NCBI GenBank assembly: GCA_947448735.1
Contig: CANFOS010000006.1
Coordinates: 1 to 64,000 of the forward strand
Origin: Comamonadaceae bacterium
GTDB lineage: Bacteria; Pseudomonadota; Gammaproteobacteria; Burkholderiales; Burkholderiaceae_C
Direction: 5' to 3'
DNA: 64,000 nucleotides
Shown here: positions 3,551 through 53,440 of the stretch, one piece after another
Position numbering within the stretch: position 1 is the stretch's first letter
How the letters are laid out: each line of letters begins with the position of its first letter
Made by a program: the position numbers and the translations under genes
The notes under the pieces: model-generated
What the model was told of the DNA's origin: nothing
What the model saw: only the letters and a program-made list of their open reading frames with translations
The model's database searches: none

Positions 3551-3617
3551 TTAGTTAAAAAATCTTCTACCCCAATAAAAACCTAGCCGAGCAGCTCTTT
3601 TATTGATAGCAAAAGGC
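3551..3617 (-). repeat. AT-rich dispersed repeat, copy 1 (intergenic)
   Basis: This fills the gap between the convergent LysR and amidohydrolase genes. Read on the minus strand from 3610 it shows the family pattern: GCTATCAATAAAAGAGCTG, then a T-rich stretch, then TTGGGGTAGAAG. It matches the copies at 34263 and 45350 in order and spacing of these blocks. The last blocks are more diverged than in other copies. Confidence 0.6.
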
Positions 3618-3618
3618 T

Positions 3619-4677
3619 TCAGGTATTCCATTTCGGCATCAGCCGCACAGCGTTGCCGCGCTCAATCGCGCGCAAATCTGCGCCTGAAAAGCCGTACTCG
3701 TACAAGCCCTTGACGTTGTCTTCGCCTGTGCGGTACGGGTAGTCCGAGCCCAAAAGGATTTGCGACACATCGACCAGTTTGGTCAATGATGCCAGCGCGC
3801 CAGGATGCGCGGCCCAGGCGGTGTCGTAGTAAAAGCGCTTGAGCTCATGCAAAACGCCATTGGGCACGCGCGCCACCAGCTTGGGGTCCAGCACTGGCAT
3901 TTTGATCAAGCGCTCGGTGATGAAAGGCAGCGTGCCACCGGCGTGCGAAAAGATGAATTTCACATCGGGGCAGCGGGCTGCCGTGCCAGAAAACACAATG
4001 TCGGTGATGGTACGGGTGGTGTCGGTGCCAAACTCAATGACCGTGGGCGGTACGTCGGCCAGCAGGTTGTTGCAGCAGTTGGCCGATGTGGGATGGGTGT
4101 ACAAAATGGCTTTGCGGCGGTTCAGCTCGTCCATGACGGGCGCGAACGAGGGGTGGCCCAGCCACTTGTCGCCATAGCTGGTCAGCAGGCCAATGCCGTC
4201 AGCTTTGAGCACATCCATGGCGTATTCAAGCTCTTTTAACGCAGCGTCCATGTTGTGCATGGGCAGCATGGCAAATGAACCGAATCGGCCTGGGTAGTCT
4301 TTACCCACTTTGGCTGTCCACTCGTTGCTTTCACGGGCAATCCTGATGGCACTTGCAGCCTCAAACACGCCCACCTGCGGTGTGGTCACCGACAGGATGG
4401 ATGTTGCAATGCCAGCTTTGTCCATGTCGCCAATGGTTCTTGCCAGCGACCAGTTGCGCACAATGGGCGGTGCCTGGTTGACCTTGGCCAGTTCTGCCAC
4501 GTAGGCCGGCGAAAACAGGTGGTGGTGCGTGTCGATGCGCTTGCTTGTGGCGGCTGGCGCAGTGCTGCCAGTGCTGGTACAGCCGGGCAAAACGGCGCTT
4601 GCGCCCAGCGCCAGCAAGCCGCTTAAAAAACCGCGCCGTGGCGTGGCGCAGCCACATGAAGGGTTCAATACCGGCAT
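3619..4677 (-). CDS. exported ACMSD-type amidohydrolase (amidohydrolase_2)
   Basis: A 352-residue protein with ATG at 4677 and GGAG 5 bases upstream. Residues 1-38 combine a twin-arginine motif (RRGFLSG, Arg14-Arg15) with a lipobox ending in Cys33 (AVLPGC), suggesting a Tat-exported lipoprotein. The TIM-barrel domain carries THHH (His51 and His53), His195 (YTHPTS), His245 (FIFSHAGG) and Asp312 (GSDYPY). This is the metal site of the aminocarboxymuconate-semialdehyde or gamma-resorcylate decarboxylase family. A C-C decarboxylase or a hydrolase are both possible. Next to maleylacetate reductase (18 bp gap), decarboxylation of a hydroxybenzoate feeding the hydroxyquinol route is an attractive but unproven role. 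Confidence 0.8.
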   Translation of the reverse strand: MPVLNPSCGCATPRRGFLSGLLALGASAVLPGCTSTGSTAPAATSKRIDTHHHLFSPAYVAELAKVNQAPPIVRNWSLARTIGDMDKAGIATSILSVTTPQVGVFEAASAIRIARESNEWTAKVGKDYPGRFGSFAMLPMHNMDAALKELEYAMDVLKADGIGLLTSYGDKWLGHPSFAPVMDELNRRKAILYTHPTSANCCNNLLADVPPTVIEFGTDTTRTITDIVFSGTAARCPDVKFIFSHAGGTLPFITERLIKMPVLDPKLVARVPNGVLHELKRFYYDTAWAAHPGALASLTKLVDVSQILLGSDYPYRTGEDNVKGLYEYGFSGADLRAIERGNAVRLMPKWNT

Positions 4678-4695
4678 GTCATCTCCTTTGATTTG

Positions 4696-5757
4696 TTAAC
4701 GATTCGGCCTGACCCCATCAAACGCGTCTTGGAGCAGTTGCCGAATGGCAACGCGCTCTAGTGGTCGCGGATTGGGGTACTGGTTTTGCATGGCGATGCT
4801 TGCGGCTTTGTCCAGGTCCGACTCTTGCATGCCAACGTCTTTGAGCGCTGTGGGCGCGCCATTGTTTTTGGCCAGATCAAACACCGCCTGAGCCGCGCTG
4901 CTGCCGCCCAGGGCTTCGGCGATCATGCGCATGGCATCTGGGGCTGCTGCCGCGTTGTAGGCCAGCGCATGCGGCAGCACAATCGTATGGGTCTCGGCAT
5001 GCGGCAAATTAAAGCTGCCGCCCAGTGTGTGGCACAGCTTGTGGTGCAGCGCCATGCCGACATTGCCCAACACCGTGCCGCACAGCCAGGCACCGTACAG
5101 CGCGTCGCTCCTGGCTTGGAGATCATTTGCTGCGGTTTTAATAGCTGGTAGCGCACGTGCCATCGCGGCCATACCCTCTTTGGCGATCAAATTCATGACC
5201 GGGTTGCTGTCCGTTGCATACAAACCTTCTGCGGCATGGGCAATCGCATTGATGCCGCTGGTCACGCTCATCGCCAGGGGCAAACCCAGTGTCAACTCAG
5301 GGTCATAAATGACCACACGCGGCAACACGCGCGGGTCCTTGCCGGTTTTTTTCATGCCCGCTTCAGTGATGCCGTAGATCGGCGTCACTTCTGACCCGGC
5401 GTAGGTGGTGGGTATCGCCAGAATCGGGAGCCCTGAATCAAGCGCAATCGCTTTTCCCAGACCCGTCGTCGAGCCACCACCAATGGCCACCGCGCAATCG
5501 GCACCCAGTGTTCTGGCCATGTCCCGAGCCTCACGAGCAGTTTCTATCGGCACATGCATCACGGCTCTGGCAAACACACCCGCAGCGCGGCTGCCCAACA
5601 AATTGGCAACCATTTCTGCTGACGCATGCTGCTCGGGCGTCGACAGCACCAGCGCTTTTTTGGCACCCAGTGTGTCGATCTCCCGCGCCAGATGCTGCAA
5701 GCTTCCTGCGCCAAACACGACGCGTGCCGGTTGGCCGTTGTAGATAAAACTTTTCAT
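4696..5757 (-). CDS. maleylacetate reductase
   Basis: A 353-residue iron-containing alcohol dehydrogenase-like enzyme of the maleylacetate reductase subgroup. It reduces maleylacetate to 3-oxoadipate with NAD(P)H. The N-terminal Rossmann half contains the dinucleotide loop AIGGGSTTGLGK (residues 91-102) and IPTTYAGSEVTPIYG. The C-terminal helical half has the conserved histidines in ALHHKLCHTLGG (His238, His239, His243) and LPHAETH (His253, His257). Together with the dioxygenase at 1612 it completes the lower hydroxyquinol pathway. Codons around 5128-5160 (AIKTAAND, residues 205-212) resemble part of the AT-rich repeat. RBS sequence is weak. Confidence 0.92.
   Translation of the reverse strand: MKSFIYNGQPARVVFGAGSLQHLAREIDTLGAKKALVLSTPEQHASAEMVANLLGSRAAGVFARAVMHVPIETAREARDMARTLGADCAVAIGGGSTTGLGKAIALDSGLPILAIPTTYAGSEVTPIYGITEAGMKKTGKDPRVLPRVVIYDPELTLGLPLAMSVTSGINAIAHAAEGLYATDSNPVMNLIAKEGMAAMARALPAIKTAANDLQARSDALYGAWLCGTVLGNVGMALHHKLCHTLGGSFNLPHAETHTIVLPHALAYNAAAAPDAMRMIAEALGGSSAAQAVFDLAKNNGAPTALKDVGMQESDLDKAASIAMQNQYPNPRPLERVAIRQLLQDAFDGVRPNR
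5128..5163 (+). repeat. possible partial AT-rich repeat inside maleylacetate reductase
   Basis: The stretch TTTTAATAGCTGGTAGCGCA at 5137-5156 resembles the first third of the AT-rich repeat (T-run, TAGCT, AGCGCA). The downstream TTGGCCTGCAGG block is not recognisable. It falls in a loop of the protein that varies between homologues. It could equally be chance. Confidence 0.3.
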
Positions 5758-5770
5758 GGTGTCAGGTTCT

Positions 5771-6649: not shown

Positions 6650-6656
6650 CGGGTGC

Positions 6657-7250: not shown

Positions 7251-7261
7251 GGGTTACTCCT

Positions 7262-8170: not shown

Positions 8171-8172
8171 TA

Positions 8173-10787: not shown

Positions 10788-10845
10788 CAAGGCACCATAA
10801 CCATCGTAAAAGGACCTTGGAGCGGGCGGTACCCCTTCAAGCAGG

Positions 10846-10934
10846 GGCCGCGGAACTGGCTTTGCCAGGCCGCAGGCGCAGCGGCCCCCTCGGGGGGCAG
10901 GGCGCTAAACGAAGTGGGCAACCGTGGGGGTGTC
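10846..10934 (+). repeat. GC-rich dispersed repeat, copy A
   Basis: This occupies most of the 149-bp gap between the Bug gene and the hydroxylase genes. Its core reads CCCCCTCGGGGGGCAG, then ACGAAGTGGGCAACCGTGGGG. The same two blocks recur at 13366, 13453 and, inverted, 51568. The upstream third is more diverged than in the other copies. Confidence 0.75.
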
Positions 10935-10936
10935 AT

Positions 10937-11911: not shown

Positions 11912-11934
11912 GATTTTGTCTCCAAACTACCTGT

Positions 11935-11990
11935 TAAAAAGGCCTCCAAGTCAATGAAGACGAGGGCTAAAAGCTCCTAAATAAATAGCA
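11935..11990 (-). repeat. AT-rich dispersed repeat, copy 2 (intergenic)
   Basis: Read on the minus strand from 11989, the blocks are GCTATTTATTTAGGAGCT, then TAGCCC, then TTGACTTGGAGGCC. Order and spacing match the copies at 45350 and 52100. It lies in the 94-bp gap upstream of the Bug receptor start. Confidence 0.7.
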
Positions 11991-12005
11991 AAAACCGCTT
12001 CCGCA

Positions 12006-13343: not shown

Positions 13344-13365
13344 TTGACGATCCCAGACGCGACAA

Positions 13366-13450
13366 GCGGCCGCCGCGATGGGCCGCCCCAAGCTAGGCCA
13401 GCTCCCTCGGGGGGCAGCGCAGCACACGAAGTGGCAAGCGTGGGGGCCAT
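13366..13450 (+). repeat. GC-rich dispersed repeat, copy B
   Basis: First of two near-tandem copies in the 197-bp gap between two minus-strand genes. The blocks in order are CCGCCGCGATGGGCCGCCCC, AGGCCAGC, CCCTCGGGGGGCAGCG, ACACGAAGTGGCAAGCGTGG. It is nearly identical to copy C over its whole length. Confidence 0.85.
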
Positions 13451-13452
13451 GT

Positions 13453-13536
13453 CAAGCCGCCGCGATGGGCCGCCCCAAGCAAGGCCAGCCCCCTCGGGGG
13501 GCAGCGTATTACACGAAGTGAAAAGTGTGGGGGCCA
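13453..13536 (+). repeat. GC-rich dispersed repeat, copy C
   Basis: Second copy, starting about 3 bp after copy B, in the same orientation. It has the same blocks (CCGCCGCGATGGGCCGCCCC, CCCCCTCGGGGGGCAGCG, ACACGAAGTG, GTGGGGGCCA). The two copies differ mainly in the short spacer after GGCAGCG. It ends 4 bp before the stop of the next gene. Confidence 0.85.
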
Positions 13537-13540
13537 CGTG

Positions 13541-16672: not shown

Positions 16673-17788
16673 ATGGATTTCGATTTCACCGATGACCAGG
16701 AACAACTGCGTGACGCAGTGCGCAAGTGGGTGGATAAAGGCTATGACTTCGAGCGCCGCCGCAGCATCACCCGAGCGGGCGGCTTTTCGCGCGAAGCTTA
16801 CGGCGAGATGGCTGAACTCGGCCTGACGGGCCTGTACATCCCCGAGGACGATGGCGGTATGGGCATGGGGCCCACCGAGGCGATGGTGGTGATGGAAGAA
16901 CTGGGGCGCGGCATGGCTCTGGAACCCTTGGGCCAAACGCTGATCGCCGGCGCTGTGTTGGCAGGTTACGCGCCTGCCGCGGTTAAATCTGAATGGCTGC
17001 CCAAAATTGCCAGCGGTGAAAGCCTCGTGGTTTTGGCATATCAGGAGCGCGCAGCCCGCTACAACGCCTCAAAATGCGAGGCAAAAGCGACTGCAGACCA
17101 ACAAAAATATACGCTGGTAGCTACAAAAAGCATAGTCATTGGCGGCGATCACGCCGATGCTTTGATGGTCCCGGCGATGCTGAACGGCACCATGGCGCTG
17201 TTTCTGGTGGCACGCACAGCCGCTGGCGTGACCGCCAAAGGCTATGTCACCCAGGACGGCGGTCGCGCCGCAGAAGTGATTTTTAACCATGCGCCGGCAA
17301 CTTTGATAACGCTTGATGGTCAAGCCGCTTTGGCCCATGCGATTGACATCGGTATTGCCAGCACCTGCGCCGAAGCCATTGGCGTGATGGATAAAACCCT
17401 GGCGATCACCGTCGAGTACATGAACACCCGCAAACAGTTTGGTGTGCTGATCAGCAGCTTTCAGGCCCTGCGTCACCGCGTGGCAGATATGAAAATGCAA
17501 ATCGAACTGGCCCGGTCCATGAGCTACTACGCGAGTCTGAAACTCAACGCCCCGGCAGCCGAACGCTCAGCGGCCATGGCCAGAGCCAAATACCAGTTAG
17601 GCGTGTCGATGCGGCAAGTCGGGCAAGAGGCTGTGCAGTTGCACGGCGGTATCGGTGTGACAGACGAGTACATCGTGAGCCATTACTTTAAAAAGCTGAC
17701 ACAGCTGGAAATGACATTCGGCGACACGCTTCATCATCTGGGTGAAGTATCAAGCCGCATGCAAGAAACGGCTGGCGTGTTTGCCTGA
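16673..17788 (+). CDS. acyl-CoA dehydrogenase, second of a pair
   Basis: A 371-residue acyl-CoA dehydrogenase with ATG at 16673 and AGGAG upstream. The N-terminal domain (ELGLTGLYIPEDDGGMG) and C-terminal four-helix domain (MDKTLAITVEYMNTRKQFG, QLHGGIGVTDEYIVSHYF) are clear. The central beta domain is degenerate relative to its partner. It contains a lysine-rich stretch (residues about 133-155) encoded by an AT-rich repeat copy at 17071-17137. It is likely to pair with the upstream paralogue. Whether this subunit keeps an active site is uncertain. Confidence 0.9.
   Translation: MDFDFTDDQEQLRDAVRKWVDKGYDFERRRSITRAGGFSREAYGEMAELGLTGLYIPEDDGGMGMGPTEAMVVMEELGRGMALEPLGQTLIAGAVLAGYAPAAVKSEWLPKIASGESLVVLAYQERAARYNASKCEAKATADQQKYTLVATKSIVIGGDHADALMVPAMLNGTMALFLVARTAAGVTAKGYVTQDGGRAAEVIFNHAPATLITLDGQAALAHAIDIGIASTCAEAIGVMDKTLAITVEYMNTRKQFGVLISSFQALRHRVADMKMQIELARSMSYYASLKLNAPAAERSAAMARAKYQLGVSMRQVGQEAVQLHGGIGVTDEYIVSHYFKKLTQLEMTFGDTLHHLGEVSSRMQETAGVFA
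17071..17137 (-). repeat. AT-rich dispersed repeat, copy 3 (inside acyl-CoA dehydrogenase)
   Basis: Read on the minus strand, the blocks are GCTTTTTGTAGCTACCAGCG, then TATTTTTG, then TTGGTCTGCAGTC. It lies wholly within the coding frame at 16673 and is translated as the segment around KATADQQKYTLVATKS. The surrounding sequence is GC-rich, so its AT-rich composition stands out. Confidence 0.75.
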
Positions 17789-18477: not shown

Positions 18478-19488
18478 ATGAAAGTCTTTCGCAGTTTCCG
18501 CCACCCCCAGCTTGCAAGCGCCTGCGCATTGACGATTGGCAATTTTGATGGCGTACATCGCGGTCATCAGGCCATGCTGGCGCTGCTTAAAAATGAGGCG
18601 CAGCACCGGGGAGTGCCCAGTTGCGTGATGACCTTTGAACCGCATCCGCGTGACTATTTTGCGGCGCTGGCCAAAAAGCCCGAACTCGCCCCGCCTCGCA
18701 TCGCCACGCTGCGCGACAAGCTCACCGAGCTCGCGGCTTGCGGCATCGACCAGGCCGTTGTGCTGCCGTTTGATGCGCGGCTGGCAAGCCAATTACCTGA
18801 AAATTTCATTGACGAGGTGCTGGTCCAGGGCTTGGGGGTCAAGTACGTGCTGGTCGGCGACGACTTTCGCTTCGGTGCCAAACGGGCAGGTGGCTACGCG
18901 ATGCTGGACGCCGCAGGGCAGCGTATCGGTTTTGATGTGGCGCGAATGAACAGCTATGAAGTGCAGAGCACGCGCGTTTCAAGCTCGGCGGTGCGGCAGG
19001 CACTGAGCGCAGGCGACATGGTGCAAGCAGCCAGTTTGTTAGGCCGGCCTTACAGCATTTCAGGCCATGTCGTGCATGGCCGCAAGTTGGGTCGTGATTT
19101 GGGCTTTCGCACGCTGAATCTGCGCTTTTCTCACTGGAACCCGGCCGCTAGCGGCATCTTTGCGGTGCAAGTCTTTGGCTTGGGCCCCAAGCCACTGATC
19201 GGCGTGGCCAATCTGGGCATACGCCCGTCGATAGACGCCAACGATGTGAACGGCGGGCGTGTGCTGCTGGAGACCTACTGCCTGGACTGGCCCGACACGC
19301 TGGGCAGCGAAGGTGGGTACGGTAAAATCGTGCGTGTGGAACTGCTGCACAAATTGCATGAAGAATTGAAATACGACGGTCTGGATGCGCTTAAAACAGG
19401 CATTGCGAAGGACTGTGACGACGCACGTGAGTTTTTTGCCAACATGCACAACGAGTGCGCCCGCCAAACCACGCGCGACCGAATTTAG
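18478..19488 (+). CDS. ribF: bifunctional riboflavin kinase/FAD synthetase
   Basis: A 336-residue RibF that makes FMN and then FAD. The N-terminal nucleotidyltransferase has [10 protein letters not shown] (21-30), [18 protein letters not shown] (127-133) and the [13 protein letters not shown] motif. The C-terminal flavokinase has [15 protein letters not shown] (201-215) and [10 protein letters not shown]. The usual flavokinase GFPTAN motif reads GFRTLN here, keeping Thr and Asn but not Pro and Ala. ileS and lspA follow, the classic order. ATG 18478 has no strong RBS in view. Confidence 0.93.
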
Positions 19489-19545
19489 ACGATCCACCCA
19501 TGCGGGCCAGGCCCGTCATTTTTCGTCTCTTTCCCAGATTCCCGG

Positions 19546-19566
19546 ATTGCGGACCCAGTCCGCAAT
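19546..19566. repeat. hairpin-forming palindrome before ileS
   Basis: ATTGCGGA (19546-19553) and TCCGCAAT (19559-19566) form a perfect 8-bp stem with a 5-base loop, 19 bp before the ileS start. Together with the flanking ATTCCCGG and CGTCATT it resembles the short palindromes common in proteobacterial intergenic DNA. It could affect ribF-ileS coupling. No T-box or other riboswitch is visible. Confidence 0.5.
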
Positions 19567-19585
19567 GACACCTCAAGCGATTGCC

Positions 19586-22432
19586 ATGACCGATATAACA
19601 CCAGACTCGACAAAGACCGACTACCGCAGCACCCTGAACCTGCCCGACACGCCTTTTCCGATGCGCGGCGATTTGCCAAAGCGCGAGGCGGGCTGGGTCA
19701 AGGGTTGGGAAGATCAGGGCATTTATAAAAAGCTTCGTATCGCCCGTGCGGGTGCGGTCAAGTTCGTGCTGCATGACGGCCCGCCGTACGCCAACGGCAA
19801 GATCCATATTGGTCACGCGGTCAACAAAATTTTGAAAGACATGATCGTCAAGGCGCGTCAGCTCAAGGGCCTGGACGCGATCTACGTGCCGGGCTGGGAC
19901 TGCCATGGTTTGCCGATTGAAAACGCGATTGAAAAGTTGCATGGCCGCCATCTGTCCAGAGACGAAGTCCAGGCCAAAAGCCGCGCCTTTGCGACCGAAC
20001 AAATCGCCGGTCAGCTGGAAGACTTCAAACGCCTGGGCGTTCTCGGCGAATGGGACAACCCCTACCGTACGATGGACTACGCCAACGAGGCCAATGAGAT
20101 ACGCGCCCTCAAACGCATCATGGAGCGCGGGTTTGTGTACCGGGGCTTGAAGCCGGTCTACTGGTGTTTTGACTGCGGCTCGTCGCTGGCTGAGTTCGAG
20201 ATTGAATATGCCGACAAAAAATCACAGACGCTGGATGTGGGTTTTAAAAGCGCCGAGCCCGACAAGCTGGCTGCTGCGTTTGGCCTGAAGCACCTGAGTA
20301 AAGACGCGTTCGCCGTCATCTGGACCACCACCGCCTGGACGATTCCCGCCAACCAGGCGCTGAACCTGAATCCTGAACTCAGCTACGCGCTGGTGGACAC
20401 CGAACGCGGCATTTTGATGCTGGCTGAGTCGCTGGTCGACAAGTGCCTGGAGCGTTACCAGCTCACCGGCCAGGTGATCGCCACCACCCAGGGTAAAAAC
20501 CTCGATTTGCTCAAGTTCATGCATCCGTTTTATGAGGTCAATGAGGGCTACAGGCGCTTGAGCCCGGTCTTTCTGGCCGACTACGCAACAGCCGATGATG
20601 GCACGGGTATCGTGCATTCGTCACCGGCTTATGGCGTCGAAGACTTCAACTCCTGCGTGGCCAATGGCATTGCGACCGACGACATCCTGAACCCAGTGCA
20701 AGGCAATGGCCGCTATGTCGATGACCTGCCGCTGTTTGGCGGCTTGAACATCTGGAAGGCGGCGCCGCTGGTGATTGACAAACTGCGCGAACATGGCCGC
20801 CTGTTTGCCACCGTCAACATCGAGCACAGCTACCCCCATTGCTGGCGGCATAAAACGCCCGTCATCTACCGTGCAGCCGCGCAGTGGTTTGTGCGCATGG
20901 ACGAAGGTGAAGGCGTTTTTACCAAAGACAAAGCGTCTAAAACGCTGCGTCAGCTGGCACTCCATGCCATTGAGCAAACCAAGTTCTACCCCGAAAACGG
21001 TCAAGGCCGTCTGCGCGACATGATTGCCGGCCGGCCCGACTGGTGCATCAGCCGCCAGCGCAACTGGGGCGTGCCGCTGCCGTTTTTCATTCACACGGCG
21101 ACCGGCGAGCTGCACCCGCGCACCATGGAAATCATGGACCTGGCTGCCAGCATGGTCGAAACCGGTGGTGTGGAGGCTTGGAGCAAGGCCACCAGCGAAT
21201 CCATCATTGGCGCAGATGGAGAACATGGCGCCCCCAACTACATCAAAAGCACCGACATCCTGGACGTGTGGTTTGACTCCGGCACCACGCATGACCACGT
21301 CCTCAAACACAGCCACGCCGCGCAATCGACCTGGCCTGCTGACTTGTATCTGGAAGGCCATGACCAGCACCGGGGCTGGTTCCACTCCTCATTGCTCACA
21401 TCCTGCGCCATGTATGACCGAGCGCCCTACAAAGGCTTGCTGACACACGGCTTCACGGTTGACGGCAAGGGCCGCAAGATGAGCAAGAGCGAGGGCAATG
21501 TGGTGGTGCCGCAAGAGGTCTCGGGCAAGCTGGGCGCCGAGATCATTCGCCTGTGGTGCGCCTCCACCGACTACTCGGGCGACCTTGGCATTGACGACAA
21601 AATCCTGGCGCGCGTGGTCGACAGCTACCGCCGCATCCGCAACACACTGCGCTTTTTGATGGCCAACGTCAGCGACTTTGACCCCGTCAAACACGCTGTA
21701 CCGTTTGACGAGCTGCTGGAGATTGACCGCTACGCCTTAAGCCGTGCGGCCCAATTGCAAGCCGACATCCTGGGGCACTATGAGGCCTATGAATTTCAGC
21801 CCGTGGTGTCCAAATTGCAAATTTATTGCAGCGAAGACTTGGGCTCGTTTTACCTCGACATTCTGAAAGACCGGCTGTACACCACCGCAGCCGGCTCACA
21901 CGCACGGCGTAGCGCGCAAACCGCCTTGCACCAAATCACCCACGCCATGCTGCGCTGGATGGCACCTTTTTTAAGCTTCACCGCTGAAGAGGCGTGGGCA
22001 AGCTTTGGTGCGTCCGAATCGATTTTCTTGGAGACCTATGCCGACTTGAAGCCGCAAGATGATGCCCTGCTGGCCAAGTGGTCGCGTATCCGGGAAATTC
22101 GTGACGCGGTGAACAAGGACATTGAAACGCTGCGCGCCGATGGCAAAGTTGGCGCGTCGCTGCAAGCGGAGGTGACACTGGAAGTCAATGCCGATGACCA
22201 TGCACTTTTAGCCAGCCTGCGCGACGATCTGAAATTCGTGTTCATCACGTCCGCTATTAATTTGGTAGCTACTGGCGTCTATAAAACATTGGTTTCAGCC
22301 AGTTTAAACACCAAATGCGATCGCTGCTGGCACTACGTTGCAGATATCGGTGTCGACCCGGCTCACCCGACCATTTGCGGCCGCTGCACCAGCAACCTGT
22401 ACGGCGAAGGCGAAACCAGGAACTTTGCATAA
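19586..22432 (+). CDS. ileS: isoleucyl-tRNA synthetase
   Basis: A 948-residue class I synthetase counted from ATG 19586 ([20 protein letters not shown]). The frame is open back to 19385 inside ribF, but the family begins at this motif. It has [11 protein letters not shown] (HIGH), the editing domain with [28 protein letters not shown], and KMSKSEGN. The C-terminal zinc site is CDRCWHY and CGRCTSNL. The variable linker just before the zinc site ([18 protein letters not shown]) is encoded by an AT-rich repeat copy. The stop abuts the lspA ATG. Confidence 0.97.
22253..22318 (+). repeat. AT-rich dispersed repeat, copy 4 (inside ileS)
   Basis: Blocks in order: GCTATTAATTTGGTAGCTAC, GGCGTCTATAAAAC, TTGGTTTCAGCC, AAACACC. 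It is in frame and falls between the anticodon-binding domain and the zinc finger, a region variable in length between bacteria. The copy runs in the sense direction. Confidence 0.75.
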
Positions 22433-22970: not shown

Positions 22971-23768
22971 TCAGGGCAATTTCATCAGGGAGGCCATGAT
23001 GAGTGACGCCTCCAGCGTGAACTCGCCGCCCTGCATGCCAGCGACCAGCCGGGCCTCATCCATCAACGCAAACTGGGCTACCTCACCGTCCTGGTTGATG
23101 GGCATCAAACCATCGGGTATGGTGGCCACGTACCACTCGATGAACTCTTGCATGTAGCCTGCTGCACCGTCGCTTGAGGGGCGACAGTTGCTTTGGCGGC
23201 CGCCGTAGCGCAAATTCTGCAGGTCGGCAACATTCAATCCGGCCTCTTCCCAGGTTTCCCGCTCAAGTGCGGTTTCAACCGTGTCCTCAGCGCTCACCAT
23301 GCCGCCCATCAGGGTGTCCCATTTGCCCGGGTCATTTGGCTTGTCAAAGGCACGCTGCTGCACCCAAAACCGGCCATCGGTGCTTTGCCCGACCAGATGC
23401 ACCGCCAGTGTGGCAATGCCCAGTGGCCGCACCGCGCCACGCTCAACCGTGCCAATTTGTGCGCCTGATGCGTTGCGAACAGCCAGTTGCTCGTTGCGCC
23501 ACGCGCCAGCCAGACCTGCATCACGCAACAGGTCAGCGAGTTGGTTCAAACCGGTGGTCACATCGCTTTGACCCAGCATCAAGTGCCAGCCAGATTGCTC
23601 TTTTTTCAGGAGCTGGTAACCCAGGTATTCTTTAGCTTTATTGGCTAAACCGTGCATGAAAGCTGGCTCCACAGAGCCAATGTTCATGTTTTGAGCGTAA
23701 AAAGGCACTCTGGGCAGTGCGGGTGGCCGCTGGGCCTCAGCCTGGAGTCGTGCCAGCCAATCTGCCAT
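22971..23768 (-). CDS. Nudix hydrolase with N-terminal DUF4743 domain
   Basis: A 265-residue protein. An N-terminal DUF4743-type domain (about 1-115) precedes a Nudix domain with WDTLMGGMVSAEDTVETAL and RETWEEAGL. The Nudix box keeps REtxEExGL, with Asp in place of one conserved Glu. This architecture is shared with YJR142W-like proteins, which act on thiamine diphosphate-like or other nucleoside diphosphate compounds. It is convergent with lspA and 3 bp downstream of the quinone oxidoreductase gene. Confidence 0.88.
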   Translation of the reverse strand: MADWLARLQAEAQRPPALPRVPFYAQNMNIGSVEPAFMHGLANKAKEYLGYQLLKKEQSGWHLMLGQSDVTTGLNQLADLLRDAGLAGAWRNEQLAVRNASGAQIGTVERGAVRPLGIATLAVHLVGQSTDGRFWVQQRAFDKPNDPGKWDTLMGGMVSAEDTVETALERETWEEAGLNVADLQNLRYGGRQSNCRPSSDGAAGYMQEFIEWYVATIPDGLMPINQDGEVAQFALMDEARLVAGMQGGEFTLEASLIMASLMKLP

Positions 23769-26579: not shown

Positions 26580-27521
26580 CTATTTTGACTGGCTGAACAC
26601 GTAAATACCGGCGATGACCAAAGTTGTACCGGCTGCAATCCACAGCGTGAAAGGCTCTCCCAGAATAAGCACACCCATCAGGATGGTAGAGATGGCACCC
26701 AGCATGCCAGTTTGGGCGGTCATGCTGGCGCCAATGCGTTCAATCGCCATCATGACCATCAGCACGGGTAGCACGGTGCACACCGATGCATTGAGCAGCG
26801 ACAGCCACAGCACTTCAGGCGCAACCAGCGCCGCATCAAGCGGCCTGAGCAGCACAAACTGAAGCAGGCAGCACAGGCATGCCACGGTGCTGGCCAGCCC
26901 CACCAGCCGCATAGAGCCCACACGCTTGACGATCTCACCGCTGTAAACCAGATACAGCGCATAGCTGACGGCGCTCAGTAAAACAAGCAGCGCGCCCCAA
27001 ACGGCGTCTTTGCCCTGGATGGTGATTTCATGGCCAAACACCAGCACCACACCGCTGTAGCTGATGGCCATCGCCACCAGCTGCCTGCGCGTGGTGCGAC
27101 GCTTGAACAGCAGCAGCCCGAGCAGCATGACGAGGGTTGGGTTCAAATACAAAATCAGCCGTTCTAGCGAGGCGCCGATGTAGACCAGACCGGCAAAGTC
27201 CAGAAAGCTGGACAGGTAATAACCGCTGAAACCGAGCAGGAAAACCCCCACCCAGTCTTTGCGCGCCAGCCGGGCCTGTCCGCGGCTGGCCCACCAGGCC
27301 ATGACGATGAACACCGGCAATGCGAACAGCATGCGCAGCATGATGAGCGTGACCGCATCGACCCCGTGGCGATAAGCCAGTTTGACAATAATGGCTTTGC
27401 CGCTGAAGCCCAGCGTTCCGACGACCGCCAGCGCCAAGCCGGGCAGTAAAGATGGGTTAATTGCTATTTTTTTTATAGCTAATTGCCCAGGAATTTCTGG
27501 GTCTGGAGATTTGTTCGGCAC
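26580..27521 (-). CDS. EamA-family (DMT) exporter with repeat-derived N-terminus
   Basis: A 313-residue ten-helix DMT transporter (LGFSGKAIIVKLAYRHG, LLGFSGYYLSSFLDFAGL, LNASVCTVLPVLMVM, MGVLILGEPF). The only start upstream of the first helix is GTG 27521, which has no RBS. The codons from there to about residue 20 lie inside an AT-rich repeat copy at 27463-27527. The native start may have been displaced, or translation may begin at an internal TTG near residue 30. Substrate unknown. Confidence 0.82.
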   Translation of the reverse strand: MPNKSPDPEIPGQLAIKKIAINPSLLPGLALAVVGTLGFSGKAIIVKLAYRHGVDAVTLIMLRMLFALPVFIVMAWWASRGQARLARKDWVGVFLLGFSGYYLSSFLDFAGLVYIGASLERLILYLNPTLVMLLGLLLFKRRTTRRQLVAMAISYSGVVLVFGHEITIQGKDAVWGALLVLLSAVSYALYLVYSGEIVKRVGSMRLVGLASTVACLCCLLQFVLLRPLDAALVAPEVLWLSLLNASVCTVLPVLMVMMAIERIGASMTAQTGMLGAISTILMGVLILGEPFTLWIAAGTTLVIAGIYVFSQSK

Positions 27522-27527
27522 CTAAAA
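27463..27527 (+). repeat. AT-rich dispersed repeat, copy 5 (5' end of EamA gene)
   Basis: Blocks: GCTATTTTTTTTATAGCTAA, TTGCCCAGGAATTT, CTGGGTCTGGAG, GGCACC. It covers the annotated start codon and first codons of the minus-strand EamA gene, in antisense orientation to it. Confidence 0.7.
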
Positions 27528-34252: not shown

Positions 34253-34262
34253 GCTTCTGGTT

Positions 34263-34319
34263 GCTATTTATATAATAGCAGGTTGCGCATATTTTGATTG
34301 GCCTGCAGCCTGAAAATGC
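34263..34319 (+). repeat. AT-rich dispersed repeat, copy 6 (intergenic)
   Basis: Blocks: GCTATTTATATAATAGCAGG, TTGCGCATATTTTG, TTGGCCTGCAGCC, AAAATGC. It lies between the SpeE-like start and the tatD stop. Its final GAAAATGC pairs with GCATTTTC at 34350-34357, inside the tatD 3' end, giving a possible long hairpin. Confidence 0.75.
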
Positions 34320-34330
34320 AAAAAAGACAC

Positions 34331-38152: not shown

Positions 38153-39223
38153 ATGACCGCCCCCATGACCTTCCTGTGGCCCCAATTTCTGTGGCTGTTG
38201 TTACTCTTGCCGCTGCTGGTGCTGCTGTACGTCTGGCTGCTGCGCCGCAAGAAAAAAATGGCGCTGCGCTACGCCAGCCTGTCCATCGTGCGCGAGGCCA
38301 TGGGCAAAGGCCAGAGCTTCAAGAGGCATATACCGCCGCTGCTGTTTTTATTGTCTTTGGCGGTCATGCTGCTGGCGTCCAGCCGGCCCTTTGCCGTCAT
38401 CACCTTGCCGTCAGATCAGCAAACCATCATGCTGGCGATGGATGTGTCAGGCAGCATGCGGGCAACCGATGTCAAACCCAACCGACTGGTGGCAGCACAA
38501 GAAGCTGCCAAGGCGTTTTTGACGCAACTGCCGCGCAACGTTCGCGTGGGTATTGTGGCGTTTGCTGGCACCGCCTCGGTGGTGCAGCCGCCCACACTGA
38601 GCCGTGAAGACCTGGTGGCCGCCATTGACAAATTCCAGATGCAGCGCGGCACGGCGATTGGCAATGGCATTGTGGTGTCGCTGGCTGAGCTGTTCCCCGA
38701 TGCGGGCATCGACATTGCGTCCATGCAATCAGGCCGGGACCGCCAACGCGGCGTTGCGATTGACCAGCAGCCCGCAGCCGGTAAAGACGGCAAAGAAAAG
38801 AAGCCTTTTGTGCCTGTAGCTCCCGGTTCCTATACCTCCGCCGCTATCATTTTGTTGACCGACGGCCAGCGCACAACAGGCGTTGATTCCATGGATGCCG
38901 CCAAGGTCGCTGCTGACCGCGGCGTGCGCATTTACACCGTCGGCGTCGGCACGGTCGACGGCGAAACAATTGGTTTTGAAGGCTGGTCCATGCGCGTCAA
39001 GCTCGACGAGGAAACCCTCAAAGGCATTGCACGCAACACCCAGGCTGAATACTTTTATGCGGGCACGGCAGGCGACTTGAAGAAGGTTTACGAGTCACTC
39101 AGCTCGCGATTGACGGTGGTGAAAAAAGAAACCGAAATTTCCGGACTGCTGGCGCTGGTCGCTGCCGCCTTTGCGCTGGTGTCTGCAGGTTTGTCGCTCG
39201 CCTGGTTCAACCGGATTCTTTAA
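38153..39223 (+). CDS. membrane VWA-domain protein (BatA-like)
   Basis: A 356-residue protein starting at ATG 38153 with AAGGA upstream. Two N-terminal hydrophobic helices (FLWLLLLLPLLVLLYVWLL-like, then LLFLLSLAVMLLASS) precede a VWA domain with the metal site AMDVSGSMRATD and later LLTDGQRTTGVD. A C-terminal helix (LLALVAAAFALVSAGLSLAW) re-enters the membrane. The linker before the TDGQ strand is encoded in part by an AT-rich repeat copy. It completes the MoxR-DUF58-VWA set. Its last 17 bp overlap the convergent VOC gene. Confidence 0.92.
   Translation: MTAPMTFLWPQFLWLLLLLPLLVLLYVWLLRRKKKMALRYASLSIVREAMGKGQSFKRHIPPLLFLLSLAVMLLASSRPFAVITLPSDQQTIMLAMDVSGSMRATDVKPNRLVAAQEAAKAFLTQLPRNVRVGIVAFAGTASVVQPPTLSREDLVAAIDKFQMQRGTAIGNGIVVSLAELFPDAGIDIASMQSGRDRQRGVAIDQQPAAGKDGKEKKPFVPVAPGSYTSAAIILLTDGQRTTGVDSMDAAKVAADRGVRIYTVGVGTVDGETIGFEGWSMRVKLDEETLKGIARNTQAEYFYAGTAGDLKKVYESLSSRLTVVKKETEISGLLALVAAAFALVSAGLSLAWFNRIL
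38801..38855 (-). repeat. AT-rich dispersed repeat, copy 7 (inside the VWA gene)
   Basis: Read on the minus strand: AAAATGATAGCGGCGGAGG, then TATAGGAACC, then GGGAGCTACAGGC. The final block fits the GGGCTACAGGCC form of the copy at 52100. The first part is diverged. It is in frame and codes for part of the VWA domain loop. Confidence 0.5.
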
Positions 39224-41587: not shown

Positions 41588-41602
41588 ATCGACCTGACAT
41601 TC

Positions 41603-42913: not shown

Positions 42914-43007
42914 GGTGATGTGATGAATGAGGACAGCGCGAGATTACCGTGACGCCAGCAGATCGTCAAACCGGTCGGCTTGCCACCCTTTGAGCTGCGC
43001 TGCTCGG

Positions 43008-44276
43008 TCAAAACAGCTGGTCGCCTGACGATTCGTTTGCTACATTTTCAGGAGCTACTCGTGCAGTATTTGCTTGGTCTGCTGTCCGATTTGACACCTG
43101 AAACGTGTCTTTCTCAGAAATTTTTGACAAATATTCAGACTTTTCAAGCGTTGCGGCCCGCACGCCCAGCAACCGCAATTTTTTGTCCAGCGGGATGCGC
43201 TTTAAGCACTGCCCGGCGACTTGCCGGATCGTTTTGGCGTCCATCGTGTAGCCGTCCAGCGTCTGGTCGCGGGTGGCGATCCTGAAGTCGTCATAGCGCA
43301 GCTTGATGCCAATCGTTTTGGCGGCGTAACCCTTGCGTGCCAAGTCACCAGCCAGCTTGTTGCACAGTTCGGTGAAGATCGCGCCCAGCGCGGCCTTGTC
43401 GCGCACCGCATGCAGGTCACGCTCGAAGGTGGTTTCCCGGCTCATGCTGACCGGCTCGCTGCTGGTGACCACCGGCCGGTCGTCGCGGCCCCAGGCCACC
43501 TCGTGCATCCACGCGCCCGTGGCCTTGCCAAATTTGGCGATCAAAAAAGACGGGTCTTGTGCGGCCAGCTCGCCAATCGTCTGGATGCCGAGCGCGGCCA
43601 GTTTTTCATCGGCCTTGGGACCAATGCCGTTGATCTTGCGGCACTTCAAGGGCCAGATTTTGCCTTGCAGATCTTCTTCATGAACGATCGATATACCGTT
43701 TGGCTTGTTGAACTCGCTCGCCATTTTGGCCAGGAGCTTGTTGGGCGCCACGCCGACCGAGCAGGTCAAGCCGGTGGCCTCGGTGATTGCCTTTTGAATC
43801 AGCCTGGCCAGCACCCGCCCCCCTTCGCGCTGGCCGCCCGGCACCTCGGTGAAATCAATGTAGACCTCGTCCACACCCCGGTCTTCCATCAGTGGCGCAA
43901 TCTCCAGAATCGTGCTTTTGAACAGCCTGGAGTATTTGCGCACCTCGTCAAAGTCAACCGGCAGCACGATGGCCTGCGGGCACAGCCTGGCCGCCTTCAT
44001 CATGCCCATGGCCGAACCCACACCAAACTGCCGCGCCGCATACGTGGCGGTGGTGATCACCCCGCGGCCGACATAGTCCTTGAGCAAGGGGAAGTCTGCA
44101 ACGGGAATAAAGCGCGGGTCGCGCGCGGGCTGCGCGGCCAGCAAGGCATCGTCGACCTTGCGCCGCCCGCCGCCAATCACCACCGGCAGGCCCTTGAGCT
44201 GCGGGTAGCGCAGCAACTCGATGGACGCAAAAAAAGCATCCATGTCGAGGTGGGCAATACGTCGTAGGGGGCGCAT
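43008..44276 (-). CDS. dinB: DNA polymerase IV (Y-family)
   Basis: A 422-residue translesion polymerase. The palm has HLDMDAFFAS and GVDEVYIDFTE (catalytic acids), with GVAPNKLLAKMASEFNKPNG and the helix-hairpin-helix KINGIGPKADEKLAALGI. The little finger extends to LRLLGVRAATLEK. The last roughly 40 residues (ISEKDTFQVSNRT onward) are encoded through an AT-rich repeat. They end in SSGDQLF, which resembles a beta-clamp binding motif (QLxLF type), so clamp contact may have been kept or reformed. Confidence 0.93.
   Translation of the reverse strand: MRPLRRIAHLDMDAFFASIELLRYPQLKGLPVVIGGGRRKVDDALLAAQPARDPRFIPVADFPLLKDYVGRGVITTATYAARQFGVGSAMGMMKAARLCPQAIVLPVDFDEVRKYSRLFKSTILEIAPLMEDRGVDEVYIDFTEVPGGQREGGRVLARLIQKAITEATGLTCSVGVAPNKLLAKMASEFNKPNGISIVHEEDLQGKIWPLKCRKINGIGPKADEKLAALGIQTIGELAAQDPSFLIAKFGKATGAWMHEVAWGRDDRPVVTSSEPVSMSRETTFERDLHAVRDKAALGAIFTELCNKLAGDLARKGYAAKTIGIKLRYDDFRIATRDQTLDGYTMDAKTIRQVAGQCLKRIPLDKKLRLLGVRAATLEKSEYLSKISEKDTFQVSNRTADQANTARVAPENVANESSGDQLF
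43039..43105 (+). repeat. AT-rich dispersed repeat, copy 8 (3' end of dinB)
   Basis: Blocks: GCTACATTTTCAGGAGCTAC, GTGCAGTATTTGC, TTGGTCTGCTGTCC, TTTGACACC. It is antisense to dinB and in frame, and replaces what is usually the short variable polymerase tail. Confidence 0.75.
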
Positions 44277-44323
44277 TGCCGAATCCTCAGCTTTCCGCTT
44301 TACTTTCCGTTTTGCTTTCGGTC

Positions 44324-44764: not shown

Positions 44765-44875
44765 TGGAAAACCTTTCAATGGGCGGAGCTGGATGTGAAT
44801 GGGGGTGTGAAGATAACGTGTGAAACACAGAAATGTTAATCGTTCGTTCATCGTTCGTTCATCTTTCGTGAATCG

Positions 44876-45328: not shown

Positions 45329-45349
45329 GGTCCGAATTTGACTTGAATC

Positions 45350-45414
45350 GCTATAAATAAAGGAGCTAAAGGCGTAGATTTTTATTAGCCTGCAGGCCAA
45401 TTTAATGCCTAAAA
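45350..45414 (+). repeat. AT-rich dispersed repeat, copy 9 (intergenic)
   Basis: One of the best copies. Blocks: GCTATAAATAAAGGAGCTAA, GGCGTAGATTTTTA, TTAGCCTGCAGGCC, AATTTAATGCC. It fills most of the gap between the helicase stop and the start of the small exported protein gene. Confidence 0.85.
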
Positions 45415-45429
45415 GGTGCTTGATCATGC

Positions 45430-47769: not shown

Positions 47770-48036
47770 ACGGTGATCTTTGAAGGCATGCGTTCATTAT
47801 CGCAAGCGCTCGGTTGGCAGCCCCGTCACGCTCAGTCACGTCAAGGCAATACAGGGCCGGTTCAAGGGGTTGGTGAATGCCGTCTTTGTCGGCATCAATA
47901 GTTGGCATGTCAGATACCTGCTGCAAGCTGAGCTTGCAGTTTTTTACGAAGGTCATCACGGTGTCATTGAGTGAAATTAACTTCAGATTCCTTCTCATTT
48001 GATCAATCTTCAAGCCAAACCCCAAGGAACAAAAAT
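47770..48036. other. 267-bp divergent gap, helicase and GDPD genes
   Basis: Promoters for both flanking genes should lie here, but no clean -35/-10 pair was found. Short frames are open on both strands. The minus one carries a CDS-like run (MPTIDADKDGIHQ) that ends as a shadow of the helicase gene. I do not call a gene. Confidence 0.4.
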
Positions 48037-49266: not shown

Positions 49267-49338
49267 CGTTCAGCACAAGCCGAAAAATGGCAAGACAAAG
49301 CCGATGTTGCCGAAGACGTCACAGCGCTCGACAGGCAC

Positions 49339-50487: not shown

Positions 50488-50634
50488 GGTGTGCCGGGTG
50501 TGGAATGGATCAAGTGTTGATATGGGGGCGCATGCTGCTCAATCCAATAGCCGCATATTTTGTCTCATGACGCGCAAAACCTCAAAAAGCGATAATCAAA
50601 AGCCCCCTGTCCGTCACGTCCCAAGGAGATCCGA

Positions 50635-51558
50635 ATGAAAGCTCAAAGCGTCCTGGCCACCATTGGCAACACCCCGCACATTCGCGTCAGCCGCCTGTTT
50701 GGTGCAGCCTGCCAAACGCACCACATCTACATCAAGTCCGAGCGCAGCAACCCGGGCGGCTCTATCAAGGACCGCATTGCCCTGGCCATGGTGGAGGCGG
50801 CCGAACAGTCGGGGGTTCTCAAGCCAGGGGCCACCATCATTGAACCGACCTCTGGCAATACCGGTGTGGGTCTGGCGGTGGTGGCGGCTGTGAAGGGCTA
50901 CAAACTGGTGTTGGTGATGCCTGAGAGCATGAGCCTTGAGCGCCGCCGCCTGATGCTGGCTTATGGTGCCAGTTTTGACCTGACGCCGCGTGAAAAAGGC
51001 ATGAACGGTGCGATTGCCCGGGCCAAAGAGCTGCTGGCGCAAACGCCCGGCGCGTGGATGCCCTCGCAATTTGACAATCCGGCCAACATTGACATCCATG
51101 CGCGCACCACGGCGCTGGAGATTTTGGCCGACTTCCCGAACGGGGTGGACTACTACATCACCGGCGTGGGTACCGGCGGCCACTTGACCGGCGTGGCGCA
51201 GGTGCTCAAAGCCAAATTCCCCAACACCAAAGTCTTTGCGGTCGAGCCTGCGGCCTCGCCCGTCATCAGCGGCGGCAAGCCGTCGCCGCACCCGATTCAG
51301 GGCATTGGCGCGGGGTTTATTCCGGCCAATTTGCATGTTGATTTGCTCGACGGCGTTATTCAGATCGAAGGCGATGCCGCCAAAGACTTTGCCCGCCGCA
51401 GCGCGACCCAGGAAGGCCTGCTGGTGGGTATTTCGTCCGGTGCCACGCTGGCGGCGATTGCGCAGAAGCTGCCTGAGATTCCAGCTGGCAGCACGGTGCT
51501 GGGCTTCAATTACGACACCGGGGAGCGTTACTTGTCTGTCGAGGGGTTCCTTCCTTGA
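50635..51558 (+). CDS. cysK: cysteine synthase (O-acetylserine sulfhydrylase)
   Basis: A 307-residue PLP enzyme with ATG 50635 and AAGGAG upstream. The PLP Lys lies in [11 protein letters not shown], the substrate loop is [12 protein letters not shown], and the PLP phosphate site is [11 protein letters not shown]. The [11 protein letters not shown] segment and overall length fit the CysK type better than CysM. It converts O-acetylserine and sulfide to cysteine. The stop TGA overlaps the TTG start of the NIF3-family gene. Confidence 0.92.
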
Positions 51559-52397
51559 ACAAAAAACAGACCCCCACGCTACCCACTGCGTGTGGTTCGC
51601 TGCCCCCCGAGGGGGCGTGCCTTGCTAGGGGCGGCCCGTCGCTGCGGCGTGCTGAATTGTTAGCGGCTTTTGACACGCTGCTGCAACCCGAGCGTTTCAA
51701 AGATTACGGACCCAATGGCTTGCAGGTTGAAGGCAAGGCCGACGTTCGAAAAATCATCTCGGGCGTGACGGCCAGTCTGGCCTTGATTGAGGCGGCTGTG
51801 GCAGCCCAGGCCGATGCGATCTTCGTCCATCACGGCCTTTTTTGGCGCGGCCAATCGGGCGCCGTGACGGGCTGGATGAAGCAGCGTCTGGCGCTGCTTT
51901 TAAAGCACGACATCAACCTGTACGCTTACCACCTGCCGCTGGACGCGCACCCCGAGCTGGGCAACAACGCGCAGCTGGGCTTGCAACTCGGGTTAACCGC
52001 GACGTCGCGCTTTGGTGAGCAAAACCTGGGCTTTTTGGGCGCCAAAACCGATGGCAGCAGCTTCGAGGACGCTTTGGCGCTGTCAGAACACGTCAAAAAG
52101 GTATTGAATAGGCCTGTAGCCCAGGTATTGTCTGCAGGAGTAGCTCCTAAAAAAATAGCGTGGTGCAGCGGCGGTGCGCAGGGCTATTTTGAGGCGGCGA
52201 TTGCTGCCGGGGCCGATGCCTTCATCACCGGCGAGATATCTGAGCCTCAGGCCCACTACGCGCGTGAAATGAATGTCAGTTTCATCGCCTGCGGCCACCA
52301 TGCGTCTGAGCGTTACGGCGCGCCTGCTGTGGCGGCCCACGTGGCTGCGCAGCATGGCTTGGCGCATGCGTTCATTGACATAGACAATCCGGCATGA
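51555..52397 (+). CDS. NIF3/DUF34-family protein with repeat-encoded N-terminus
   Basis: A 280-residue NIF3-like dinuclear-metal protein. Conserved segments are [93 protein letters not shown] and [13 protein letters not shown]. Its role is unclear (GTP cyclohydrolase-like or metal-related claims exist). Start TTG 51555 overlaps cysK. Residues 5-32 ([22 protein letters not shown] in part) are encoded by a GC-rich repeat, so the family domain begins only at about residue 32. TTG 51657 is an alternative start. A second insertion, residues about 183-202, comes from an AT-rich repeat. Confidence 0.88.
51568..51650 (-). repeat. GC-rich dispersed repeat, copy D
   Basis: Reverse-complement copy of the family: GCCGCAGCGACGGGCCGCCC, AAGGCACG, CCCCCTCGGGGGGCAGCG, then CACACGCAGTGGGTAGCGTG when read on the minus strand. 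It spans the first codons of the NIF3-family gene and is 10 bp past the cysK stop. It has the same sense relative to transcription as copies A-C. Confidence 0.85.
52100..52159 (-). repeat. AT-rich dispersed repeat, copy 10 (inside the NIF3-family gene)
   Basis: Read on the minus strand from 52159: GCTATTTTTTTAGGAGCTAC, TCCTGCAGACAATACC, TGGGCTACAGGCC, AATACC. It is in frame and codes for [19 protein letters not shown] in a loop just before the conserved CSGGAQG. Confidence 0.8.
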
Positions 52398-53440
52398 CGA
52401 CGTCAGCGCAACGCCCCATCCTCATCACCATGGGCGATGCCGCAGGCATTGGGCCTGAAGTCATTGCCAAGGCGTATCAGCACCATGCGGCCGATCTGGT
52501 CGGTTGTGTGGTGGTGGGCGACGTGGCGACGCTGCGCCGCGCCGCCGCCGTGGTGGCGGCACCTGTGGCTTTGCCAGTGGCGCAGCTCGATTCCTTGAAT
52601 GACGTGGCGCCGCCTCATTGCATCCCCGTGCTACAAAAATGCGAGCTAATAGCCCAAATATCCATTGGCTCGGTGAGTGCTTTGGCAGGTCAGGCGGCGG
52701 CTGAGTGCATTGTTTGGGCGGCGCAGTCGGTCTTAAACGGTCAAGCCGCCGCCATGGTGACAGCGCCGATTCACAAAGAAGCCTTGGCCGCGGCTGGTGG
52801 CTGGGCGGCGCAGTTCCCTGGCCATACCGAAATGCTGCAGTTTGAAGCAGCAAAGTTTTTGGGCAAAGAAGCAGCAGACCTGCCGGTCCGCATGATGCTG
52901 GCCAATGATCAGCTGAAAACCGTTCTGGTCAGCATTCACATGTCGTTAAAGCACGCCATTGAGGCGGTGACGTTTGACAACGTTTTGCAAACCCTGCGCA
53001 TCACCCACGCCGCCTTGAGCAAAAGCCTGGGGCACGCTCCCCGCATCGGTGTGGCGGGCTTGAACCCGCATGCCGGTGAGGGTGGTTTGTTCGGGCACGA
53101 GGAGCAAACCATCATTGCGCCGGCCATCGCCGCTGCGAAAGCCGAGGGGCTCAATGTGAGCGGCCCCTTCGCGCCAGACACCGTTTTTATGCGGGCCCGA
53201 GCCAAAAATGGCCAGCCTGGCGAGTTTGATGTGGTGGTGGCGATGTACCACGACCAGGGCCTGATACCGGTCAAATACCTGGGGGTGGAGCAGGGCGTGA
53301 ACGTCACACTGGGCTTGCCGTTGGTGCGCACCAGCCCCGACCACGGCACGGCATTTGACATTGCCGGGACTGGCAAAGCAGACCCGGCCAGCCTGGTCGC
53401 CGCGATTCGCATGGCGCGGCGGCTGGCTGCCCAAGCATGA
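52394..53440 (+). CDS. pdxA: 4-hydroxythreonine-4-phosphate dehydrogenase
   Basis: A 348-residue PdxA of the vitamin B6 pathway. ATG 52394 overlaps the NIF3 stop (ATGA). Motifs are ITMGDAAGIGPEVIAKA, VTAPIHKEAL, FPGHTEMLQFEA (metal His), VGVAGLNPHAGEGG-like GVAGLNPHAGEGGLFG, and MYHDQGLIPVKYLG (metal His), then RTSPDHGTAFDIAG. The stretch around residues 79-98 (VLQKCELIAQISIGSVS) is encoded by an AT-rich repeat and replaces a normally variable loop. Confidence 0.95.
   Translation: MTTSAQRPILITMGDAAGIGPEVIAKAYQHHAADLVGCVVVGDVATLRRAAAVVAAPVALPVAQLDSLNDVAPPHCIPVLQKCELIAQISIGSVSALAGQAAAECIVWAAQSVLNGQAAAMVTAPIHKEALAAAGGWAAQFPGHTEMLQFEAAKFLGKEAADLPVRMMLANDQLKTVLVSIHMSLKHAIEAVTFDNVLQTLRITHAALSKSLGHAPRIGVAGLNPHAGEGGLFGHEEQTIIAPAIAAAKAEGLNVSGPFAPDTVFMRARAKNGQPGEFDVVVAMYHDQGLIPVKYLGVEQGVNVTLGLPLVRTSPDHGTAFDIAGTGKADPASLVAAIRMARRLAAQA
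52630..52690 (+). repeat. AT-rich dispersed repeat, copy 11 (inside pdxA)
   Basis: Blocks: GCTACAAAAATGCGAGCTAA, TAGCCCAAATATCCA, TTGGCTCGGTG. The last block is partly diverged. It is in the sense orientation, in frame and markedly more AT-rich than the flanking pdxA codons. Confidence 0.65.

Follow-up and report, generated by a model that had tools for sequence, protein, structure and literature searches.

A dispersed, two-part dyad motif of Comamonadaceae genomes that points to a DNA-recognition system with species dialects

In-place drive of a sequence motif is documented for two bacterial families, and the DNA uptake sequences (DUS) of Neisseriaceae and the uptake signal sequences (USS) of Pasteurellaceae have a core of about 9–12 bp. 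Rickettsia palindromic elements are in-frame insertions in protein-coding genes, with the frame kept open. DUS occur in species dialects and are lacking in some relatives (PMC3630211); molecular drive has been proposed for uptake sequences (PMC1939737); the betaproteobacterial repeat element (BRE), a dispersed repeat of Comamonadaceae with some copies in coding sequences, is about 90 bp long, has a GC content of 69% in Bordetella and commonly stands in tandem (PMC3110155); and the GTAG-tagged repetitive extragenic palindromes (REPs) with their REP-associated tyrosine transposases (RAYTs) are short, dyad-containing, numerous and mostly intergenic (PMC3733652). Here, a repeat family is described from a stretch of 64,000 nucleotides (the window: positions 1 to 64,000 of contig CANFOS010000006.1, Comamonadaceae bacterium assembly GCA_947448735.1, whose genome is called G000 below). 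Its motif, about 62 bp long, suggests a system of DNA recognition that has its own dialect in every species, and its in-gene copies appear to have been made by ordinary mutation in place, not by jumping in. The carriers are soil and water bacteria, in which copies number in the hundreds. An initial annotation, made from the letters of the window, linked the repeat to similar sequences in Comamonadaceae but to no named family, and no description was found in the searched literature either, which took in few subscription papers and no bioRxiv preprints; a term look-up in PMC12306157 gave no matches.

The repeat family is real. A first profile, built from 10 window copies and run against G000, gave E<1e-5 for 150 of 150 scored candidates (1627 first-look candidates in the genome). 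A window-free profile was trained on 26 copies of the same genome outside the window, themselves first found using the window copies. It recovered ten of the eleven copies initially called clear, eight of them at E<=1e-7 and those at 22253 and 52630 at 6e-5 and 1e-4, and missed the one at 38801; of two copies called weak, that at 5137 is marginal and that at 37623 was not found, and an overlooked copy was added at 23593. The best E in the reversed window was 0.67 with this profile. The genome search that had been proposed as a check was run with an iterated profile and returned 64 copies at E<1e-4 in 460 kb (reversed sequence, best E 0.41), with a strand split of 26:17 on C1. A pattern search of the genome found 1 match vs. 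2 in the backward control, and Rfam gave no motif match at gathering score in the window, where its sole match was a tRNA gene at 58197–58269. The copies in the window are as follows:

3550–3612, minus strand: intergenic copy; E 6e-8 with the window-free profile; 39 bits.
5127–5190, plus strand: weak, doubtful copy in an amidohydrolase-type gene (4696–5757, minus); E 0.07; 24 bits with a genome-trained profile.
11929–11991, minus strand: intergenic copy; E 1e-11.
17077–17138, minus strand: copy in an acyl-CoA dehydrogenase gene (16673–17788, plus), antisense; E 1e-7; orthologue length unchanged.
22251–22313, plus strand: copy in ileS (19385–22432, plus), sense; E 6e-5; same length in 14 of 14 orthologues.
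23593–23655, plus strand: overlooked copy, within a gene call (22971–23708, minus) or at its 5′ end; E 7e-6 with the window-free profile (match 23593–23647); 35 bits.
27461–27523, plus strand: intergenic copy by our own gene calls; E 6e-10.
34261–34323, plus strand: intergenic copy; E 1e-12.
43037–43099, plus strand: copy at the 3′ end of dinB (43008–44276, minus; Pfam IMS), antisense; E 4e-13.
45348–45410, plus strand: intergenic copy by our own gene calls; E 1e-13, the best in the window.
52099–52161, minus strand: copy in nif3/DUF34 (51555–52397, plus), antisense; E 2e-8; no insertion.
52628–52690, plus strand: copy in pdxA (52394–53440, plus), sense; E 1e-4; a rare CTA codon forms GCTAC in relatives.

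Copies stand in both orientations, and the ten that were confirmed are AT-rich (37–51% GC vs. 58% for the window), both as first described. The seven clear copies initially placed in genes were an overcount: five confirmed copies lie there (acyl-CoA dehydrogenase, ileS, the dinB 3′ end, nif3 and pdxA), besides the overlooked 23593 copy and the weak 5127 copy, by our own gene calls.

The motif is built of two parts, in which GCTAT-N7-ATAGC, GTAGC or GGAGC is followed by a second dyad, e.g., GCCCA-N9-TGGGC, and a short AT tail. The consensus is TTTGCTATTAATTTAGTAGCTGCTAGCCCATGTATTTATTGGGCTACAGCCCTATTTGATA in G000, TTGCTATnAATTTAATAGCTGCTTGCGCCCGTnnTnATTGGGCTAGAGGCnTATTT in G014, TTGCTATtAaTTTaATAGCTaaaaGCCcAggtagcgaaTGGGCTgGAG in G141 and TGCTATatatTtaATAGCTgCTTgCGCTTttTttAcAAGCGCTAgAG in G163, which belongs to another genus. 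Dyad 1 is common to the dialects, whereas both arms of dyad 2 change together from dialect to dialect; GTAGC is internal and found in part of one dialect, and ATAGC stands in G014, G141 and G163. A function as RNA or single-strand hairpin was considered and rejected: the stems seem to covary between species, but pair counts within a genome equal those in shuffles, with 83.3% of cells pairing vs. 83.5% in G014 and 61.2% vs. 61.3% in G000, i.e., no arm covariation. By the same kind of comparison, the motif columns vary independently inside one genome, which would be expected for a symmetric protein reading base by base and not for a selected hairpin. The information in the motif amounts to 51–56 bits spread over about 60 positions, a figure somewhat inflated by the scoring of good copies alone; 13.5–13.8 bits are enough to address the sites.

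As judged from alignments of orthologues, the tested in-gene copies are shown to have arisen in place by substitution. Among 80 nif3 orthologues, 71 have the same length and 9 are longer by 1–6 residues (the loci were fetched with six peptide patterns, one of them inside the copy, giving a mild bias to similar genes), and the motif stands at the same site in other Comamonadaceae. Length is likewise the same in all ileS orthologues and at three acyl-CoA dehydrogenase loci from two genomes; the 76 pdxA orthologues differ by +2 (46), 0 (12) or +3 (12) residues, the other six lying between −5 and +6. Orthologues from distant families, a check named at the outset, carry no motif in nif3 of nine other Burkholderiales families and differ by 0 to −3 residues (a match was obtained in 9 of the 12 genomes searched). 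Solved relatives agree with the orthologues in that no block of about 20 residues is missing; among further in-gene copies compared with solved relatives, the dipeptide ABC ATPase differs by 1 residue, and since the WaaA site falls outside the aligned part, this comparison covers five further genes. No tested in-gene copy is a 20-residue insertion, though some lie in loops that have grown. In-frame mobile insertion is therefore rejected for the tested in-gene copies. The initial view of a mobile element tolerating insertion finds no support in genes, where the motif-free orthologues of four window genes show no gap of about 20 residues.

The motif is often built by rare ATA and CTA codons. The nif3 codon before AWC (present in 77 of 80 loci) is ATA in 20 of 27 Polaromonas, 12 of 27 other and 4 of 23 Variovorax/Ramlibacter-type loci, against background ATA shares of isoleucine codons of 5.4%, 4.4% and 1.0%, respectively. 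The leucine of PVLQ in pdxA (present in 46 of 76 loci) is CTA in 6 of 14, 6 of 13 and 0 of 19 such loci, against backgrounds of 1.1%, 2.5% and 0.7%. Because the loci are related, nominal p-values for these counts carry no weight.

The copies within a genome are diverged. In 87 of the approximately 530 G000 copies, two copies share 57% identity on average, and the most similar pair reaches 81% over 52 bases (a partial copy), compared with a mean maximum of 77% in column shuffles; no near-identical pair or recent-copy subfamily was found among the 87, and the best pairs in G141 and G163 are no better than shuffles. Nevertheless, the informative motif positions are conserved between species. Between G000 and G012 (10 sites), differences fall at 61 of 316 high-information, 32 of 78 low-information and 285 of 1164 flank positions, and between G000 and G015 (7 sites) at 21 of 224, 12 of 56 and 67 of 840, respectively (high vs. 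low information, Fisher p 0.0002 for G012 and 0.02 for G015). At the 6 sites where G012 has few gaps, its orthologues score at least as high in 5. That the motif evolves in place and is maintained is, on these comparisons, highly probable.

Between genes, copies may be inserted or deleted. Of 15 G000 sites, 7 could be aligned throughout in G015, with length differences of at most 1 base; 9 in G012, with differences of −10 to +15 bases; and 4 in the copy-free G013, with −12 to 0 bases. No clean 62-base gap was seen at the aligned sites of these three genomes, though a site with a gap that large may have failed to align and so been overlooked, and no insertion border was found for terminal inverted repeats or target duplications. 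A tally of 2997 flank pairings, redundant and derived in part from an intermediate profile (REL) contaminated by nif3 orthologues and used solely here, gave 1600 of the same length within 6 bases, 372 shorter and 503 longer. Separately, the closest relative, G015, lacks a segment of about 1.1 kb with an amidohydrolase gene (3547–4662), and there the flanks lie 5 bases apart; the copy at 3566 sits on the border of this segment.

Copies occur at one per 6–8 kb (about 7 kb), or some 530 per genome as extrapolated from the 64 in 460 kb. Matches at E<=1e-4 were found in 14 of 18 relatives from the genus of G000 and in none of the other 4; the same search gave no matches in 12 genomes of other families. 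A second profile found matches at E<=1e-6 in at least 80 of 299 family genomes and at least 43 of 141 genera, with per-genome counts that are lower bounds, since 17 candidates were scored per genome. On these searches, the repeat is restricted to this lineage. Among named loci, copies at E<1e-4 number 65 in 27 for Polaromonas, 6 in 4 for Rhodoferax, 2 in 1 for Acidovorax and 1 in 1 for Paracidovorax, and unclassified family members carry them too; the 16 Variovorax and 8 Ramlibacter loci gave none, although dyad 1 is retained in three nif3 genes from these two genera. The nearest named nif3 relatives are from Polaromonas metagenome-assembled genomes, L108 (94% protein identity) and L041 (87%), on which basis G000 is placed within Polaromonas or close to it. 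Among 72,556 plasmid records, blastn gave a single partial match (Delftia, 53% of the query), and among 50,697 phage records none, results that say little because blastn with one degenerate 66-base copy is insensitive.

Of the 64 copies, 44 are intergenic, 9 partly so and 11 inside genes, coding sequence making up 87–90% of the total. By our own gene calls, and with the total length of each kind of spacer in brackets, G000 has 15 copies between convergent genes (5.6 kb), 39 between codirectional genes (33.9 kb), 1 between divergent genes (11.5 kb) and 15 in genes; the corresponding numbers for G014 are 19 (14.1 kb), 24 (49.4 kb), 5 (18.7 kb) and 21, with two unplaced. Between codirectional genes, the two orientations of the motif relative to the genes are balanced in G000 (20:19), and G014 has a skew of 7:17. 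No depletion near atypical genes was detected in G000 (rho −0.03, p 0.55), and a weak one in G014 (rho −0.17, p 0.002). In G014, two pairs of oppositely oriented copies lie within about 200 bases (L206:15805–16008 and L213:14643–14821).

As to what maintains the motif, a biased uptake or transfer of DNA is our tentative choice, one that falls a little short of an even case. A dimeric protein would recognize the motif in its double-stranded form, and drift in the specificity of this protein between species would give rise to dialects. DNA that bears the motif would be favoured in uptake or transfer and would then recombine with the chromosome, so that copies might accumulate by a molecular drive like the one put forward for DUS and USS. 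Such a bias is proposed because it fits the in-place origin, the independent columns, the dialects, the excess information and the absence from some relatives. The fuller proposal, offered with less assurance, is that of an undescribed duplex self-recognition signal: a site of about 62 bp with two separately evolving dyads, possibly bound by a dimeric protein, driven in place, with dialects that might favour or bar gene exchange, in nearly a third of the sampled genera.

Several observations weigh against the above. No receptor for the motif was found, and to our knowledge the motif is far longer and sparser than any DUS or USS. Of 11 genomes, 10 have comEC, among them the four copy-free genus members tested, and the one that lacks it is an incomplete copy-rich genome; in this sample, competence-gene presence does not track the motif or separate copy-rich from copy-free genomes, and it was dropped as an explanation. 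Pairwise spread among the 87 G000 copies is 0.065 vs. 0.055 in shuffles (largest 0.060), and in G141 and G163 it slightly exceeds all 50 shuffles, so that some shared history or heterogeneity exists; G014 copies are over-dispersed as well (standard deviation 5.1 vs. 3.0 expected). G015 orthologues score 2–9 bits below G000 in 7 of 7 sites, and when sites were found from the G015 side, its copies were still lower in 5 of 6 distinct sites. Relative to solved relatives, TruB and FolC are each longer by 4 residues and AceE by 12 at the copy, and YggS by 0 in the copy and 7 after it. Finally, 522 of the 2997 flank pairings are nearly closed where the copy is absent.

The main rival, which we consider less likely, is a chromosome-architecture or regulatory site, i.e., hundreds of sites for a dimeric nucleoid, partition or transcription factor, under ordinary selection and with the same in-place origin. 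It explains the dyads equally well, including arms that change together solely between dialects, as well as the independent columns within a genome, and it agrees with the near absence of copies between divergent genes (1 of 55 intergenic copies in G000, 5 of 48 in G014). A weak orientation bias between chromosome halves, set without located origins, also favours it among the matches listed: 13:25 vs. 30:16 in G141 and, by counts, 23:10 vs. 15:18 in G163. However, it accounts less well for the information excess, about four times that needed for addressing even if somewhat inflated by scoring good copies alone. It is also at odds with the 397 kb of one genus member that hold no copy, and even spacing is not seen in G000 (coefficient of variation 0.81, null 0.80–1.16) or G014 (1.01).

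An old, now inactive mobile family resembling miniature inverted-repeat transposable elements or REPs, perhaps inserted solely between genes, is improbable. This modified form of the first reading would explain the high copy number, the dyad parts, the intergenic preference and the shorter spacers at some copy-free intergenic sites. A Y1_Tnp gene, identified at that level and not as a RAYT, was found in 11 of 11 genomes tested, yet these include four copy-free ones. In-gene copies correspond to no missing block, the 87 copies include no near-identical pair, informative positions are conserved and shared sites carry lineage dialects, all of which speak against such a family. Still less probable is template-driven replacement, in which a single-stranded or reverse-transcribed donor would anneal to partial matches and overwrite them without length change: the L108 nif3 gene shows 12 differences from the window copy (52099–52161), grouped within about 37 bases, with no indel and identical flanks (25 bases left, >30 right of the changes), but no copy is near a template (mean identity to consensus 68%, maximum 80%), which bears also on the earlier gene-converting idea, and the changes between G000 and G015 or G012 are scattered and favour weak positions.

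Other repeats were observed alongside the motif. GC-rich repeats of about 85 bp at 13369–13539 (tandem at 13369) and 51571–51651, with many relatives in G014 and other genomes, resemble BRE by its description in PMC3110155, not by sequence comparison. A second GC-rich repeat of about 100 bp (10832–10936) recurs in many places in G011, G012, G014 and G015. In 6 of 6 copy-rich genomes examined (loci L342, L344, L345, L346, L341 and L340), comEC has a motif copy within or next to one and the same linker, and no copy scoring below E 0.8 was found in comEC of three copy-free genomes (G003, G013 and G018); the protein alignment covers 5 of 9 genomes. In G014 (L346), this linker contains nearly identical peptide repeats, in frame and in tandem, at the same places as GC-rich repeat matches.

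If biased uptake or transfer is the true driver, the motif would be a further case of drive, in Burkholderiales and with a far longer, dyad-symmetric motif. With copy-free relatives in the same genus, it would serve as a natural experiment on the forces that drive motifs of this kind. The case would bear on how motifs reshape conserved proteins such as IleRS and on how dialects isolate species, and it cautions annotators that a dispersed palindromic repeat is not necessarily mobile.

Set beside the described systems, the motif resembles the Rickettsia palindromic elements in that palindromic sequence lies within open genes; here, however, no block has been inserted at the tested genes. With GTAG-tagged REPs it shares shortness, dyads, many copies and a mainly intergenic position, but most dialects lack a terminal GTAG, and there is no hairpin covariation, no near-identical copies and no in-gene insertion; assignment to REPs and RAYTs was dropped after comparison of tag, covariation and the distribution of transposases, with a Y1_Tnp gene in copy-rich and copy-free genomes alike. 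Like BRE, it is dispersed in Comamonadaceae with copies partly in genes, whereas it is AT-rich and occurs as single copies. The likeness to DUS and USS extends to hundreds or more of copies in both orientations, in-place origin in genes, dialects and copy-free relatives. In contrast to them, the motif, known here from its sequence, is about 62 bp long, dyad-symmetric and far sparser, and it is not filed as a DUS because its information is spread over about 60 positions instead of a short core.

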